64,000 bases of DNA from Desulfuromonadales bacterium (lineage in GTDB: Bacteria > Desulfobacterota > Desulfuromonadia > Geobacterales > Pseudopelobacteraceae). The position numbers and the translations under genes are program-made. This document shows, one piece after another, positions 7,530 through 21,603 of the stretch. The notes under the pieces were generated by a model. The model saw only the letters and a list, made by a program, of their open reading frames with translations, was not told where the DNA came from and ran no database searches. Position 1 is the stretch's first letter. Every line of letters starts with the position of its first letter. The stretch spans positions 1 through 64,000 of the forward strand of contig JACAAY010000009.1 in the NCBI GenBank assembly GCA_013377095.1, written 5' to 3'.

Positions 7530-7547
7530 GGGATTTGGAGACAACCC

Positions 7548-9701
7548 ATGAGTGAAAATACAGACCAGCAGAGCGGCGGACTTGTTCTGATCATTGACGA
7601 TGATCCCATGATCCTGATACTGGCCCGTGAAGCCCTTGAAAAGGAAGGTTTTGTTGTTGAAGAAGCGTCCGACGGCAGCCGGGTCCTGTCGATGTTCAGC
7701 CGGCTGCAACCGGATATCGTCCTGCTGGACGTCATGTTGCCCGGAATCGACGGTTTTACGGTCTGCAGGCAGATTCGCGAACACCCCGAAGGTAAAAACA
7801 CACCGGTGCTGATGATGACGGGACTCGATGATATCGAGTCCATAAAAAGAGCCTATGACTCAGGAGCCACTGATTTCATATCCAAGCCGTTCAACTGGTT
7901 TGTGCTCGGGTACAGGGTGCGCTACATGCTGAGGGCAAGCCGGACACTGCATGCCCTCGACAGCAGCCGGGTCAGCCTCAGTTATGCTCAGCGCATCGCC
8001 CGGTTGGGGAGCTGGGAATGGAATGTGGAGAACGATCGCATGCACTGGTCGGATGCCGTGAATGAGATTTTCAATGTTGATCCGCAGGATCTGGACAAAT
8101 CCTATCAGGCGTTCCTGAATTTTGTCCATCCCCTGGACAAGGAGCTGGTCAGTTCGGCAATCGAAGGTGCGCTTACCAACAACAAACCCTACAGTATCGA
8201 TCACCAGATCCTGCTTCCCGATGGCAGCGAGCGCTTCGTCCATTCCGAGGCAGAGGTCATTGCCGACAAGAACGGTAAGCCGGTGCGCATGTCCGGCATC
8301 ATGCAGGATATCACCGAACGGAAAGAGGCAGAGAAACGGATCAAGGATCTGGCCTACTATGACAGCCTGACCGGCCTGCCCAACAGGATTCTTTTCAAGG
8401 AGAACCTTGAACATGCCCTGGCCCATGCAGAACGCAAGAACACCAAGGTTGCCACGCTGTTTCTGGATCTGGACCGGTTCAAGTGGATCAACGACACCAT
8501 GGGACACAGTGTGGGGGACCTGCTTTTGCAGGCGTTTGCCGGACGTCTTAAAAATACCGTCCGCAAGAGTGACAGCATTACCCATGACAATCTCAGCCAG
8601 TCGTCCTATTCGATCGCGCGTCTCGGCGGGGACGAATTCACCATCATCCTGGATGATATCAATCGTGCCCAGGATGCCGCAATAGTGGCGCGCAGGATTC
8701 TGGAAGAAACGTCGCAACTCTTTGTCATTGACGGTCATGAGGTGTTTGTAACGGCCAGCATCGGCATCAGTATTTTTCCCGATGACGGCAATGATATCGT
8801 CACACTGATCAAGTACGCCGATACGGCCATGTATCACGCCAAGGACCTGGGAAAAAACCACTTCCAGTTCTATTCCAGTGACATGACCGACAACGCCTTC
8901 AAATTTCTCCTGCTGGAGAATCAGTTGCACCACGCCATGGAGAGGAATGAGTTTGAGGTGCACTATCAACCCCAGGTCGACATGCTGAGTGGCGAGGTGA
9001 TCTGTGTGGAGGCTCTGATCCGCTGGCAGAACCCGGAACTCGGCATGATATCTCCCGCAACCTTCATACCGCTGGCAGAAGAAATAGGGTTGATTGTACG
9101 GATTGACGAATGGGTACTAACCTCCGTCTGCAGGCAGATCAAGGCGTGGGAAAAGGACGGTCTGCCCCCGGTACGTGTTGCGGTCAATCTGTCGGGTCAG
9201 AACTTCATGCAAAAAAACCTGTCTGACAGGATCAGTACAATCCTCACCGCAACCGGAGTCAGTCCCGATCGTCTCGAACTGGAGTTGACCGAGGGAGTGC
9301 TCATGCGTGACGGAAAGGAAACCATCACTACTCTGGACGAACTGAAAGGGATGGGACTTTCTCTGGCTATTGACGACTTTGGCACAGGGTATTCCTCACT
9401 CAGTTATCTGAAACGTTTCCGGCTCGATACCCTGAAGATCGACAGGTCGTTCATCAAGGATATTGCTTCGGATAGCGACAGCGAAGCGATTGTTGCAGCC
9501 ATCGTTTCACTGGCAGACAGCATGAAATTAAGGATCATTGCCGAAGGGGTTGAGACTGTGGAGCAGCTCACCTTTCTTTGCGGCTTGCAGTGCAACAGAA
9601 TGCAGGGATTTCTGTTCGATCGTCCGATGACAAGCAGCAATATGTCGTCATTGCTTCGCGAGGGGAAGAATTATTCGGGTAGATTGCACATGGATGCATA
9701 A
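7548..9701 (+). CDS. Response regulator with REC-PAS-GGDEF-EAL domains
   Basis: 717-residue cytoplasmic regulator of cyclic di-GMP. The receiver has its phospho-acceptor Asp near 61 (VLLDVMLPGIDGF). A PAS domain with PAC-like tail follows (about 140-260), then GGDEF with an intact signature at about 360-364 (RLGGDEF) and an EAL domain with EAL at about 488-490 (CVEALIRWQNP). I see no RxxD inhibitory site in the usual place before GGDEF. Both catalytic signatures look functional, so it could make or degrade c-di-GMP. A good ribosome site (TTGGAG) precedes the ATG, 18 bases after the kinase stop. It is the likely phosphorylation target of the neighbouring hybrid kinases (inference). Confidence 0.93.
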   Translation: MSENTDQQSGGLVLIIDDDPMILILAREALEKEGFVVEEASDGSRVLSMFSRLQPDIVLLDVMLPGIDGFTVCRQIREHPEGKNTPVLMMTGLDDIESIKRAYDSGATDFISKPFNWFVLGYRVRYMLRASRTLHALDSSRVSLSYAQRIARLGSWEWNVENDRMHWSDAVNEIFNVDPQDLDKSYQAFLNFVHPLDKELVSSAIEGALTNNKPYSIDHQILLPDGSERFVHSEAEVIADKNGKPVRMSGIMQDITERKEAEKRIKDLAYYDSLTGLPNRILFKENLEHALAHAERKNTKVATLFLDLDRFKWINDTMGHSVGDLLLQAFAGRLKNTVRKSDSITHDNLSQSSYSIARLGGDEFTIILDDINRAQDAAIVARRILEETSQLFVIDGHEVFVTASIGISIFPDDGNDIVTLIKYADTAMYHAKDLGKNHFQFYSSDMTDNAFKFLLLENQLHHAMERNEFEVHYQPQVDMLSGEVICVEALIRWQNPELGMISPATFIPLAEEIGLIVRIDEWVLTSVCRQIKAWEKDGLPPVRVAVNLSGQNFMQKNLSDRISTILTATGVSPDRLELELTEGVLMRDGKETITTLDELKGMGLSLAIDDFGTGYSSLSYLKRFRLDTLKIDRSFIKDIASDSDSEAIVAAIVSLADSMKLRIIAEGVETVEQLTFLCGLQCNRMQGFLFDRPMTSSNMSSLLREGKNYSGRLHMDA

Positions 9702-18436: not shown

Positions 18437-18590
18437 TCTCCTCTTTCTGAAGTCGCATGGCTGAAAACCGACTTGTGCAATTCATTGCTGAGTGCTGATG
18501 TTCACGTCATCACTATTCAAGACGTCTTTCCGCTTCGAAAGGTTTCATGTATTGTTGAAACTATACACCACAGAGATCGACAGGGGAAAC

Positions 18591-19841
18591 ATGATGAACA
18601 GAGAACCCCAACCAACTGTTTTTCTCGGACGTCAACCAATTCTGGATCTCCGTCAGGAGATAGTGGCCTACGAACTCCTGTTCCGCTCGGCTGATATCGC
18701 CGTCAGCGATTATGCCAACCAGGATCAGGCCTGTATCAGCGTGATCGAAAACGCCCTTTCCGGTTTCGGATTACGGCATGTGCTGGGAGACAAGGACGGT
18801 TTCTTCAATATTACCGAAACGGTGCTGTTGTCCGAGTTTGTCGAAATTTTGCCCAAAGATCAGGTTGTTTTGGAACTGATGGAAAACATTCCATTTAACG
18901 ACAGGGTCCGTGAACGGGTGCTGGAGCTCAAATCCAGGGGTTTTCGGCTTGCGCTCGACGATTATGTCTACTCGCCGGAGCACGCGAGCATCTGCCGGTT
19001 GGTGGATGTGATCAAGATCAACATACTTGAAACCTCGCCAGAAATGCTGCGGGAGGTGGCGCGTGAATTGCGCGCATCCCCGGTCAGTCTCCTTGCTGAA
19101 TGCGTGGAAACCATGGAATAGTTCAGGGAATGCCGTGAACTCGGTTTCGAGTTGTTTCAGGGGTACTTTTTCGAACGACCGGTGGTGCTCAGGAGGAAAG
19201 AGCTGGAAAGCTCGAAGATCGGCGTGCTGAGGCTTCTGGACAGCCTGAGGGGGGACATGGTGGTTGCGCAGGTCGAGGCAGTTTTTAAAGATCATCCCGA
19301 TCTGAGCTACAACCTGCTCAAGCTGGTCAATTCGGTGCACATCAATCTGCGGGAAAAGATCAAGAGTCTCCGTCACGCCATCATGATTCTCGGTCTTGAG
19401 AACCTTCGGCGCTGGGCCCGGCTGACGATCTTTGTCTGTTCCGACAGCAGGGGTATCAACAATCCGCTACTGGAGATGGCCGCGGTTCGTGGACGGCTGA
19501 TGGAATCTCTGGTCATGCGGCGACATTCGCTCCCTCTCAACGATGAGCTGGTTGAGTCCGCTTTCATGACCGGTATCATGTCACTGGTGGACGTCCTGTT
19601 TGGAGTATCCATGGAGGAGATCGTGGGGGAGTTGCATCTGAATGATGCCGTGTCACTGTCTCTGCTCCATCGTAAGGGGGAGTTGGGAGCCCTTCTGACG
19701 CTGGCGGAAACGCTGGAAATGGTTGATTTCAGAGAGGTTCAACGCTTGGTTGAGGCCAGTGACATTCCGTCTGACGAACTTCTGAAGGCGCAACTGGTGG
19801 CATACAACTGGCGCTCCAGCATGTGGAGGTCGGATGAGTAG
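18591..19841 (+). pseudogene. EAL-HDOD signalling protein, split by an in-frame TAG
   Basis: The frame encodes an N-terminal EAL-like domain (FLGRQPILDLRQEIVAYELL, LELMENIP, LALDDYVYS) and a C-terminal HDOD domain (YNLLKLVNSVHINLREKI, LRHAIMILGLENLRRWARL), the YuxH-type two-domain architecture. TAG at 19119-19121, just before FRECRELGFELFQGYFFERP, cuts the last part of the EAL domain from HDOD. The frame is the same on both sides and no other damage is visible, so one base change (for example GAG to TAG) explains it. The EAL half lacks the canonical EAL triplet (YELL), as usual for this non-enzymatic family. ATG 18591 follows AGGGG. Two separate polypeptides (18591-19121, 19152-19841) could still be made. 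Confidence 0.8.
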
Positions 19842-19929: not shown

Positions 19930-20262
19930 TCAGAGCGCAGTCTGTCCCCATGTGTCCACAATCTGGCACTTGTGGAGGAAGTTATGGATATTTACTTCCC
20001 CGACAATGACCTCAACCTCTGTGGGAGAGAGGCCGATCTTCGGCCTGACGCCCATCCAGTGCGACACCGTTGCGTTCGGCTCCTCCAGCGGTCGCGGCAG
20101 CGGTGGTCCCGGTTTGTACAGACCGTTCACGAAAAGCATCGCTTCAAACCAGCGAGGGCGCTTGACAAGTTTGACCTGCGCAAGCATCCCGTTGGACAGC
20201 TTCTTTTCTACCAGTGTTTCATGGATCTCCGCATCCTCAGGTATTCTGTGTGTATCGTCCAT
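19930..20262 (-). CDS. Riboswitch-controlled protein of unknown function
   Basis: 110-residue soluble protein with no signal peptide and no family I recognise. It has a basic first half (LVEKKLSNGMLAQVKLVKRPRWFEAMLF), a proline-rich middle (KPGPPLPRPLEEP) and an acidic or hydrophobic end (GLSPTEVEVIVGEVNIHNF). I chose ATG 20262 because GAGGAG stands just upstream; a longer frame reaches 20322 but would run through the terminator hairpin. The gene has its own promoter, a GEMM-I riboswitch and an intrinsic terminator directly ahead of the ribosome site, so its expression should respond to c-di-GMP (or cGAMP). Confidence 0.75.
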   Translation of the reverse strand: MDDTHRIPEDAEIHETLVEKKLSNGMLAQVKLVKRPRWFEAMLFVNGLYKPGPPLPRPLEEPNATVSHWMGVRPKIGLSPTEVEVIVGEVNIHNFLHKCQIVDTWGQTAL

Positions 20263-20280
20263 ATTCTCCTCACGATCTTG

Positions 20281-20318
20281 AAAACAAAAAGCCCACCTCT
20301 TCATACAAAAAGGTGGGC
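20281..20318 (-). terminator. Intrinsic terminator in the riboswitch leader
   Basis: On the - strand GCCCACCT and AGGTGGGC form an 8-bp stem with a 12-base loop, followed by TTTTTGTTTT. It lies 22 bases after the GEMM-I aptamer and about 18 bases before the ATG of the downstream gene, the normal position for a transcription-control expression platform. Confidence 0.85.
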
Positions 20319-20340
20319 GCACGCACGTACAGCTAATGCG

Positions 20341-20428
20341 ATACTGACGTCTACTTCGACTACCCCTCTGCCCGTTCTGGGAGGTGGCTTTGCGTCACCC
20401 GGTTCCCCGGATTTTGCCTTTTCGGTAT
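20341..20428 (-). promoter_or_regulatory. GEMM-I (c-di-GMP / cGAMP) riboswitch
   Basis: Read on the - strand, the RNA has the GEMM-I core: GGCAAA, a CCGG-GGAA-CCGG stem with a GNRA tetraloop, then GACGCAAAGCC. A second stem with a GGGUAG receptor-like element follows. The outer helix can close with AUAC (20428-20425) and GUAU (20344-20341), giving 88 nucleotides, the usual size. A promoter lies upstream and an intrinsic terminator downstream. Whether it reads c-di-GMP or the 3',3'-cGAMP of Geobacter type Ib I cannot decide by eye. Confidence 0.88.
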
Positions 20429-20480
20429 ATTTCTATTCGATTGTCATTACAGCCGCTGTCTGGAGATTTGTTCCGGACGT

Positions 20481-20509
20481 ACAATAGTAAATATTGTTAC
20501 GTTTTGCAA
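20481..20509 (-). promoter_or_regulatory. Probable promoter of the riboswitch transcript
   Basis: On the - strand TTGCAA (20509-20504) and TATTGT (20486-20481) are 17 bases apart. Transcription would start near 20474, about 45 bases before the aptamer, which matches a dedicated riboswitch leader. Confidence 0.5.
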
Positions 20510-20550: not shown

Positions 20551-21603
20551 CTAAAACCGGTAGCCGAGACCCAGGAGGAAGATATCGGTGTCCCTGTCGT
20601 AGTTGGTTACGATCCGGTTCATGATAAAGCGCAGGGAAAGATCGGGGTTGAAACCGAAGTCCCTGACACTTGCCGTTACCGAGAGGACACCCGAAGCGAA
20701 GGAAGAGCCCCCCTGACCAGCGGTCGCCCCTTTTCTTTTGTCGATGGCGAGATAGGCCCCAAAACCGCCACCCAGGGAGAGATGATCATTGAGGAACGAT
20801 CGAACCAGCCAGAACTGCCCCAGGGCGCCGTTGCGCCGGACCAGCTCGTTGTCCCCCTCGTTAAGCCAGGCAAGGCTGACGTCAAGGTAGCGTAACAACC
20901 CACGCCGGTATTCGACACAGGTGGCGACTGACTTGGGGGAACCGGGATTGTTGACGACCGTCTGACCGACATACACGGAGAGTTCGTTGTTGGTGGTCTT
21001 TTCCGCTTGAGTTGGCGGTGTTGGCAGCGGTCCGGTCGAAAGTGGCGGATCGAGTTGGTAACCTATGCCGACGAGACCGGTGAGGGTGTCGATGCTCTTG
21101 CCGGTGACGACCCAGTTGGCCCTCGCCTGAAGCAGGATGCGGGATTGGGTATAGAGTGTGGCGGAGACCGCAAAGAGGCCGCCCACGTTGTGGTCATCCC
21201 TGACGATACCGTTGATTTTAGTGGTATCGGCAAAGAGGTACGGGCCGGCACCTATGGCCAGAGACAGCCTGCGGTCGAGAAGGTTGGTCCGTCCCCAGAG
21301 CATGATCGGTGTCAATCCGTCCCTGTGGTGATTTGGAAGGTGCCCCTCGTTCAGATAGGAAGCGCTGGCAGCAAAGTTTTCCCCCAACCCTTCCCGGTAT
21401 TCAACCTGATAGGCAAAGGAATTGTAAGGGCTGTCAACCTCTTTGGTTACACCGTACAAACCGAACAGTTCCCCTGCCGTCGCCATCTCGGGTATGACCA
21501 TAAGCAACAACAGCAGAATGATCCGGTACAGGTGAGACGTTGAAGAAGTTGATAAACAGACCGTACGACAACAGTGAGTCAGCAGTGTCTGATATGCACC
21601 CAT
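20551..21603 (-). CDS. Outer-membrane beta-barrel protein with internal duplication
   Basis: 350 residues. After a long N-region and hydrophobic signal core (IILLLLLMVIPEMATA) the protein is made of alternating amphipathic strands and ends in an aromatic C-terminus (LLGLGYRF), as outer-membrane barrels do. The two halves repeat each other: VEYREGLGENFAASASYLNE, then LSLAIGAGPYLFADT in the first, and VEYRRGLLRYLDVSLAWLNE, then LSLGGGFGAYLAIDK in the second, joined by a proline-rich linker (PLSTGPLPTPPTQAEK). It could be one barrel with duplicated hairpins or two small barrels. AGGGGAGGG precedes ATG 21603. The function is not recognisable. Confidence 0.7.
   Translation of the reverse strand: MGAYQTLLTHCCRTVCLSTSSTSHLYRIILLLLLMVIPEMATAGELFGLYGVTKEVDSPYNSFAYQVEYREGLGENFAASASYLNEGHLPNHHRDGLTPIMLWGRTNLLDRRLSLAIGAGPYLFADTTKINGIVRDDHNVGGLFAVSATLYTQSRILLQARANWVVTGKSIDTLTGLVGIGYQLDPPLSTGPLPTPPTQAEKTTNNELSVYVGQTVVNNPGSPKSVATCVEYRRGLLRYLDVSLAWLNEGDNELVRRNGALGQFWLVRSFLNDHLSLGGGFGAYLAIDKRKGATAGQGGSSFASGVLSVTASVRDFGFNPDLSLRFIMNRIVTNYDRDTDIFLLGLGYRF

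Follow-up and report, generated by a model that had tools for sequence, protein, structure and literature searches.

The 64,000-nucleotide stretch of DNA analysed here (hereafter the window) carries on its minus strand a riboswitch of the known class GEMM-I, positioned ahead of a gene for a 110-residue protein, P0001, whose family is termed FAM below. This riboswitch most likely senses c-di-GMP and would turn transcription of the 110-residue gene OFF by means of an antiterminator that, on folding predictions and comparison with related leaders, is formed by the 5' strand of the aptamer's own binding core. The parts of this system, their conservation and their associations are solid, and c-di-GMP as the ligand with OFF as the direction is likely. 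New here are an OFF platform located on the binding strand, a rule relating to a C at aptamer position 46, and the gene module with which such switches are associated; the base-46 rule may already stand in Kellenberger 2015 / Nelson 2015 on Geobacter cGAMP riboswitches.

The leader and its aptamer

The features to which the text refers are as follows.

20481..20509, minus strand: weak sigma-70-like promoter, TTGCAA-17-TATTGT (8/12 consensus bases)
20355..20428, minus strand: GEMM-I (c-di-GMP-I) aptamer, by RF01051 and model R1
20418, 20417 and 20392, minus strand: aptamer pocket bases G20, G21 and C46, respectively, by sequence
20417..20424, minus strand: predicted antiterminator 5' strand CGAAAAGG, within the aptamer core and including G20 and G21; 8 pairs with 20313-20306
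20306..20313, minus strand: antiterminator 3' strand CCUUUUUG, being the terminator 5' arm plus the first loop base, by predicted fold
20291..20318, minus strand: predicted intrinsic terminator hairpin of 12 bp, apart from the aptamer
20281..20290, minus strand: U tract TTTTTGTTTT, following the terminator hairpin
20266..20270, minus strand: ribosome-binding site AGGAG, by sequence
19930..20262, minus strand: 110-residue protein P0001 (FAM), of an order-restricted family, by ORF and family searches
18492-19841, plus strand: EAL-HDOD gene, adjoining the FAM gene
7530-9698, plus strand: GGDEF-EAL frame, about 10 kb from the FAM gene

The Rfam model RF01051 matched the minus strand at 20428-20355 over its whole length (positions 1-87 of 87) with 47.4 bits (E 3.7e-6), the gathering score being 35 bits, and this aptamer was the only Rfam match in the 64-kb window; model R1 scores it at 74.6 bits. 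The first-pass annotation had named a GEMM-I riboswitch and proposed such a covariance search as a check, and its identification is confirmed by this significant match as well as by the motifs on which it relied (GGCAAA, a GNRA-capped stem and GACGCAAAGCC), all of which are found in the window sequence. The letters of an AUAC/GUAU closing helix, as letters alone, lie at 20428-20425 and 20344-20341. As the genome of the window holds 41 GEMM-I matches, the aptamer is one among many in the cell.

Inspection of the specificity position, likewise proposed at first pass, revealed G20, with pair 21-46 being G-C (Vc2 numbering); we take this to be the c-di-GMP combination, as in Vc2, and A20 with C21-G46 to be that of cGAMP switches. 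The cGAMP GEMM-Ib signature (A20, C21-G46) is therefore not the one borne by the window aptamer, whose bases suggest c-di-GMP rather than cGAMP as its ligand. Aptamers with A20 and G46 do occur elsewhere in the genome (e.g. L019, L027 and L028). Base 20 has been described as tuning selectivity rather than acting as a hard filter (PMC9262584).

Regarding the remaining parts of the leader, the promoter of the first-pass annotation is weak in the window, where the candidate at 20509-20481 scores under the cut-off of the promoter scan, although TTGACA occupies the equivalent place in most orthologous leaders. The terminator hairpin is real, but it comprises 12 bp and not the 8 bp ascribed to it; 36 nt separate it from the end of the aptamer, with no overlap, and AGGAG begins 10 nt past the end of the U tract. 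Within the aptamer-terminator interval (columns 86-115 of alignment A5, which comprises 12 related leaders), a hairpin, possibly a pause or spacer hairpin, occurs in most orthologous leaders (e.g. AUGUUGCA...UGCAACAU); it remains able to form despite changes in its sequence.

Antiterminator, base 46 and the direction of switching

Transcripts ending before the terminator 3' arm were folded for the window and nine complete orthologous leaders. In these truncated folds the terminator 5' arm pairs upstream in 75-91% (87% in the window), the chief partner being the core strand CGAAAAGGCA, which holds G20, G21 and C22. The resulting helix has 8 bp in the window (CGAAAAGG with CCUUUUUG), 9-10 bp with UGCCUUUUCG in the main ortholog group, and 8 bp in Pelobacter propionicus, where the terminator sequence differs. 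In alignment A5, 90.8% of the cells of this helix pair, as against 34-50% when it is slid by 1-3 columns, and RNAalifold proposes it unaided from the 12 related leaders. A compensatory double change in L237 (A-U to U-A) keeps the helix, this being a single event that is reached by 251 of 500 shuffles. Before the 3' arm emerges, the ligand-free fold beats the aptamer-held fold by 2.9-11.9 kcal/mol (7.3 in the window). Taken by itself, the window does not show significant core complementarity (p about 0.1), the support coming from the relatives. Since the terminator is already present when the full-length window leader is folded freely, the decision must fall during transcription, i.e. under kinetic control.

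In the mechanism that we propose, the 5' core strand CGAAAAGG, with G20 and G21, would in the absence of ligand pair with the emerging terminator 5' arm, so that the terminator would not close in time and the gene would be read. With ligand, this strand would be held in the pocket, leaving the terminator 5' arm free to form the 12-bp hairpin, whereupon transcription would stop. Because the terminator lies apart from the aptamer and its 5' arm is able to pair with the core strand, we infer that the window element is an OFF switch.

An OFF switch whose antiterminator instead employs the aptamer 3' strand (GGCAGAGGGG), as in Cd1, is a reading to which we assign a rather low probability, though a higher one than to the other alternatives weighed below. 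This strand is the nearest upstream partner in the sequence and, as an isolated duplex in the window, its pairing with the terminator arm is the more stable (-13.7 vs -8.8 kcal/mol for the core strand); such pairing would likewise disrupt the aptamer and so give OFF. However, the truncated window fold gives the core strand nearly all of the pairs (6.9 vs 0.1 bp), and the pairing that is conserved is that with the core. The preferred reading is thus the core-strand antiterminator for the window and its orthologs. The idea that every C46 switch uses one and the same antiterminator partner was considered and rejected: in truncated folds, half or more of the terminator arm pairs with the aptamer in only 20 of 40, and several use the 3' strand or the linker.

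Among described systems, the Vc2-type GEMM-I resembles the window element in its full-length covariance match, G20 with G21-C46 and a GNRA-capped P2. Vc2 is described as translational (PMC9262584), whereas the window has an intrinsic terminator and, by prediction, an antiterminator on the 5' core strand. In the OFF switch Cd1 of Clostridioides difficile, terminator and aptamer can coexist, and an antiterminator competes against the two of them (PMC9262584); the window shares this arrangement in its predicted structure, and the promotion of termination by ligand in the proposed mechanism. The switching strand of Cd1 pairs with the aptamer 3' A strand, while the window favours the 5' strand that bears the pocket bases. 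The cGAMP GEMM-Ib ON switches of Geobacter (pilM, pgcA) belong to the same aptamer superfamily, and both layouts occur in the window's genome; in pilM the terminator is built from the aptamer 3' strand (PMC9262584), unlike that of the window, which lacks this strand and starts 36 nt later. As modelled here, the expression platform differs in detail from those described for GEMM-I.

The layout of the platform follows base 46. The window's genome has 14 C46 and 26 G46 aptamers, one of its 41 being unassigned; the terminator of the former is separate in 12, overlapping in one and ambiguous in one, while for the latter it overlaps in 23, is ambiguous in three and was counted as separate in none. 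Across five other genomes the C46 aptamers comprise 20 with a separate terminator, one overlapping and three without a terminator, and the G46 aptamers 21 overlapping, none separate and one without. Pooling all six genomes, the terminator is separate in 32/34 C46 and 0/44 G46 aptamers (Fisher p 7e-20, a value that overstates the evidence owing to shared aptamer ancestry, three second-set members orthologous to the window element and some calls made by eye), and it is of the overlapping, ON type in 44/44 G46 aptamers. The terminators were picked partly by eye, with L013 reassigned to separate and L008, L022, L030 and L126 left out of the test. The platform tracks base 46 and not base 20, given that L001, L012, L015 and L016 combine A20 and C46 and are OFF-type; in the ON-type aptamers of the window's genome base 46 is G, base 20 is A in about half, and the aptamer 3' strand forms part of the terminator.

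The combination of A20, C46 and a separate terminator was observed in these four aptamers of the window's own genome and in L234 and L238; such A20/C46 aptamers are possibly cGAMP or dual-ligand OFF switches. In each of the two species of the genus, a C46 OFF-type GEMM-I element also stands ahead of a FIST-domain protein (L001, L215), the two proteins being similar.

The FAM family and its genomic setting

The FAM open reading frame comprises 110 codons (ATG at 20262, stop at 19932-19930). P0001 has no significant match in Pfam, NCBIfam, PHROGs, PADLOC or PDB sequences, and the 65-member FAM family gave chance-level matches at best against Pfam, NCBIfam, PHROG, PADLOC and PDB profiles. The AlphaFold model of P0001 is confident, with a mean pLDDT of 88.9; for it Foldseek returned no significant structural neighbour, the matches being partial throughout and the best having E 0.54 in the PDB and E 0.09 among viral structures. 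A literature search found no paper on the FAM gene or its link to any riboswitch. The first-pass annotation's description of an uncharacterised protein accordingly stands, but its further statement that the gene is wholly unknown does not hold for the context of the gene: the FAM family extends across an order, its paralogues have a fixed place behind mglBA, and among relatives an HD-GYP protein belongs to the same operon under the same riboswitch.

FAM relatives are encoded in 93 of 147 related genomes, and a class-wide search gave 91 positives among 277 genomes, every one of them within a single order. A single-sequence protein search of the genome contigs with P0001 gave zero matches, while an alignment-based search of the contigs yielded 59 FAM loci. 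Named hosts are Geomonas, Citrifermentans, Geotalea, Oryzomonas, Pelotalea and Pelobacter propionicus DSM 2379. The conserved core of the family consists of a strand-rich segment, GPPxPRPL, a WMGVRPKxGLxxEE-like motif and a helix. A third FAM copy in the window's genome (G000:C229:8719-9004) is apparently frameshifted.

Employing a search model built from the window genome's own aptamers, GEMM-I was found to precede FAM genes in 11 genomes, which belong to several genera and include Pelobacter propionicus; five of the 11 were also found by the Rfam model itself. On the tree these FAM members fall into a single group of 25, of which 11 have the aptamer and 14 lack it. All 10 complete FAM leaders retain an intact binding core and terminator; among them the terminator sequence diverges while the complementarity stays.

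In three loci (L053, L041, L049) one GEMM-I precedes FAM, a gene for a small, probably helical protein (SMALL) and an HD-GYP gene on the same strand, SMALL lying about 50 nt downstream of FAM in L053 and L049; the HD-GYP protein of L053 has the motif HHERYDGNGYP and matches Pfam HD_5 (E 1e-23). FAM and SMALL occur together in L057, L038, L043 and L054. In P. propionicus, FAM (L034/L221) and SMALL-HD-GYP (L216) stand at two places, each with its own GEMM-I, while the switch lies directly ahead of the HD-GYP gene in Pelotalea chapellei (L264), heads SMALL alone in L265 and heads a response regulator-HD-GYP gene in L237; a core-complementary terminator is present in L216, L264, L265 and L237. The three module genes occur without the aptamer in L048 and L052. 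Neither a SMALL nor an HD-GYP orthologue was found in the window's genome, and the module is therefore deduced from the relatives. The module HD-GYP proteins are likely c-di-GMP phosphodiesterases. Since the switch of the relatives controls FAM, SMALL and HD-GYP, in one operon or in pieces, FAM would belong to a c-di-GMP-turnover module that is itself repressed by c-di-GMP.

In 16 genomes, that of the window among them (L132, 11907-12239, minus strand), mglB and mglA are followed, as third gene, by a FAM paralogue with about 44% identity. The identity of MglA and MglB was confirmed by their matches to Myxococcus proteins of solved structure (E 1e-101 and 2e-63). The riboswitch-controlled FAM copy forms a transcription unit separate from these mglBA polarity operons. 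The linked paralogue is a candidate for an accessory role in the system of the polarity GTPase MglA, and FAM itself may act as an accessory to c-di-GMP turnover or to MglA-dependent surface behaviour.

The first-pass annotation had placed FAM beside EAL-HDOD and GGDEF-EAL genes. The EAL-HDOD gene does adjoin it, though interrupted by an in-frame TAG at 19119-19121 (either a nonsense mutation or a sequencing error, the frame running on both sides), whereas the GGDEF-EAL frame is about 10 kb distant. The EAL-HDOD gene was rejected as FAM's functional partner, being interrupted and not a conserved neighbour. Upstream, the gene at 20551-21603 (minus strand) encodes 350 residues, possibly outer-membrane-barrel-like (Pfam below cut-off), without a family.

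Competing interpretations and biological meaning

The same OFF logic with 3',3'-cGAMP, or with both cyclic dinucleotides, as the ligand appears unlikely. G20 with G21-C46 is, as in Vc2, the c-di-GMP combination, and the co-regulated HD-GYP genes point to c-di-GMP as well. For cGAMP or a dual response speak the A20/G46 cGAMP-type aptamers of the genome, from which it follows that cGAMP is probably made, together with the role of base 20 in selectivity (PMC9262584) and a Geobacter switch reported to answer both cyclic dinucleotides (PMC6456294). Slightly less probable still is an ON switch, in which ligand binding would prevent termination: the known Geobacter GEMM-Ib switches are activating (PMC6456294) and 23 of the 26 G46 aptamers of the window's genome show the ON layout, yet GEMM-Ib terminators use the aptamer 3' strand, while that of the window starts 36 nt further on such that both can coexist, and none of the structures found has the bound aptamer standing in the way of the terminator. 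Least credible, at a very low probability, is a decayed or constitutive leader, with a relic aptamer and a terminator that merely attenuates. The absence of GEMM-I from 14 members of the same 25-member protein clade would fit such decay, but every complete leader retains its binding core and terminator intact, the complementarity having been kept despite divergence of the terminator.

With the c-di-GMP-responsive OFF switch as the preferred reading for the window, a wider picture may tentatively be drawn, which we consider rather less probable than its negation: the GEMM-I elements of the order would form two opposed sets, C46 (OFF) and G46 (ON), with a pocket-sequestering subset of the OFF switches governing FAM-SMALL-HD-GYP, such that high c-di-GMP would shut off its own destroyer, and with the FAM paralogue tied to MglA.

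Base 46 provides a simple sequence rule that predicts ON or OFF for the GEMM-I elements of Geobacter relatives, and by this rule one cell could have opposite sets of genes driven by c-di-GMP and by cGAMP. If the OFF direction is true, c-di-GMP would repress its predicted destroyer, which amounts to positive feedback, and such feedback on the HD-GYP genes could keep cells attached. The links of FAM with c-di-GMP control, an HD-GYP phosphodiesterase and the mglBA polarity operon place this protein family in a testable biological setting.
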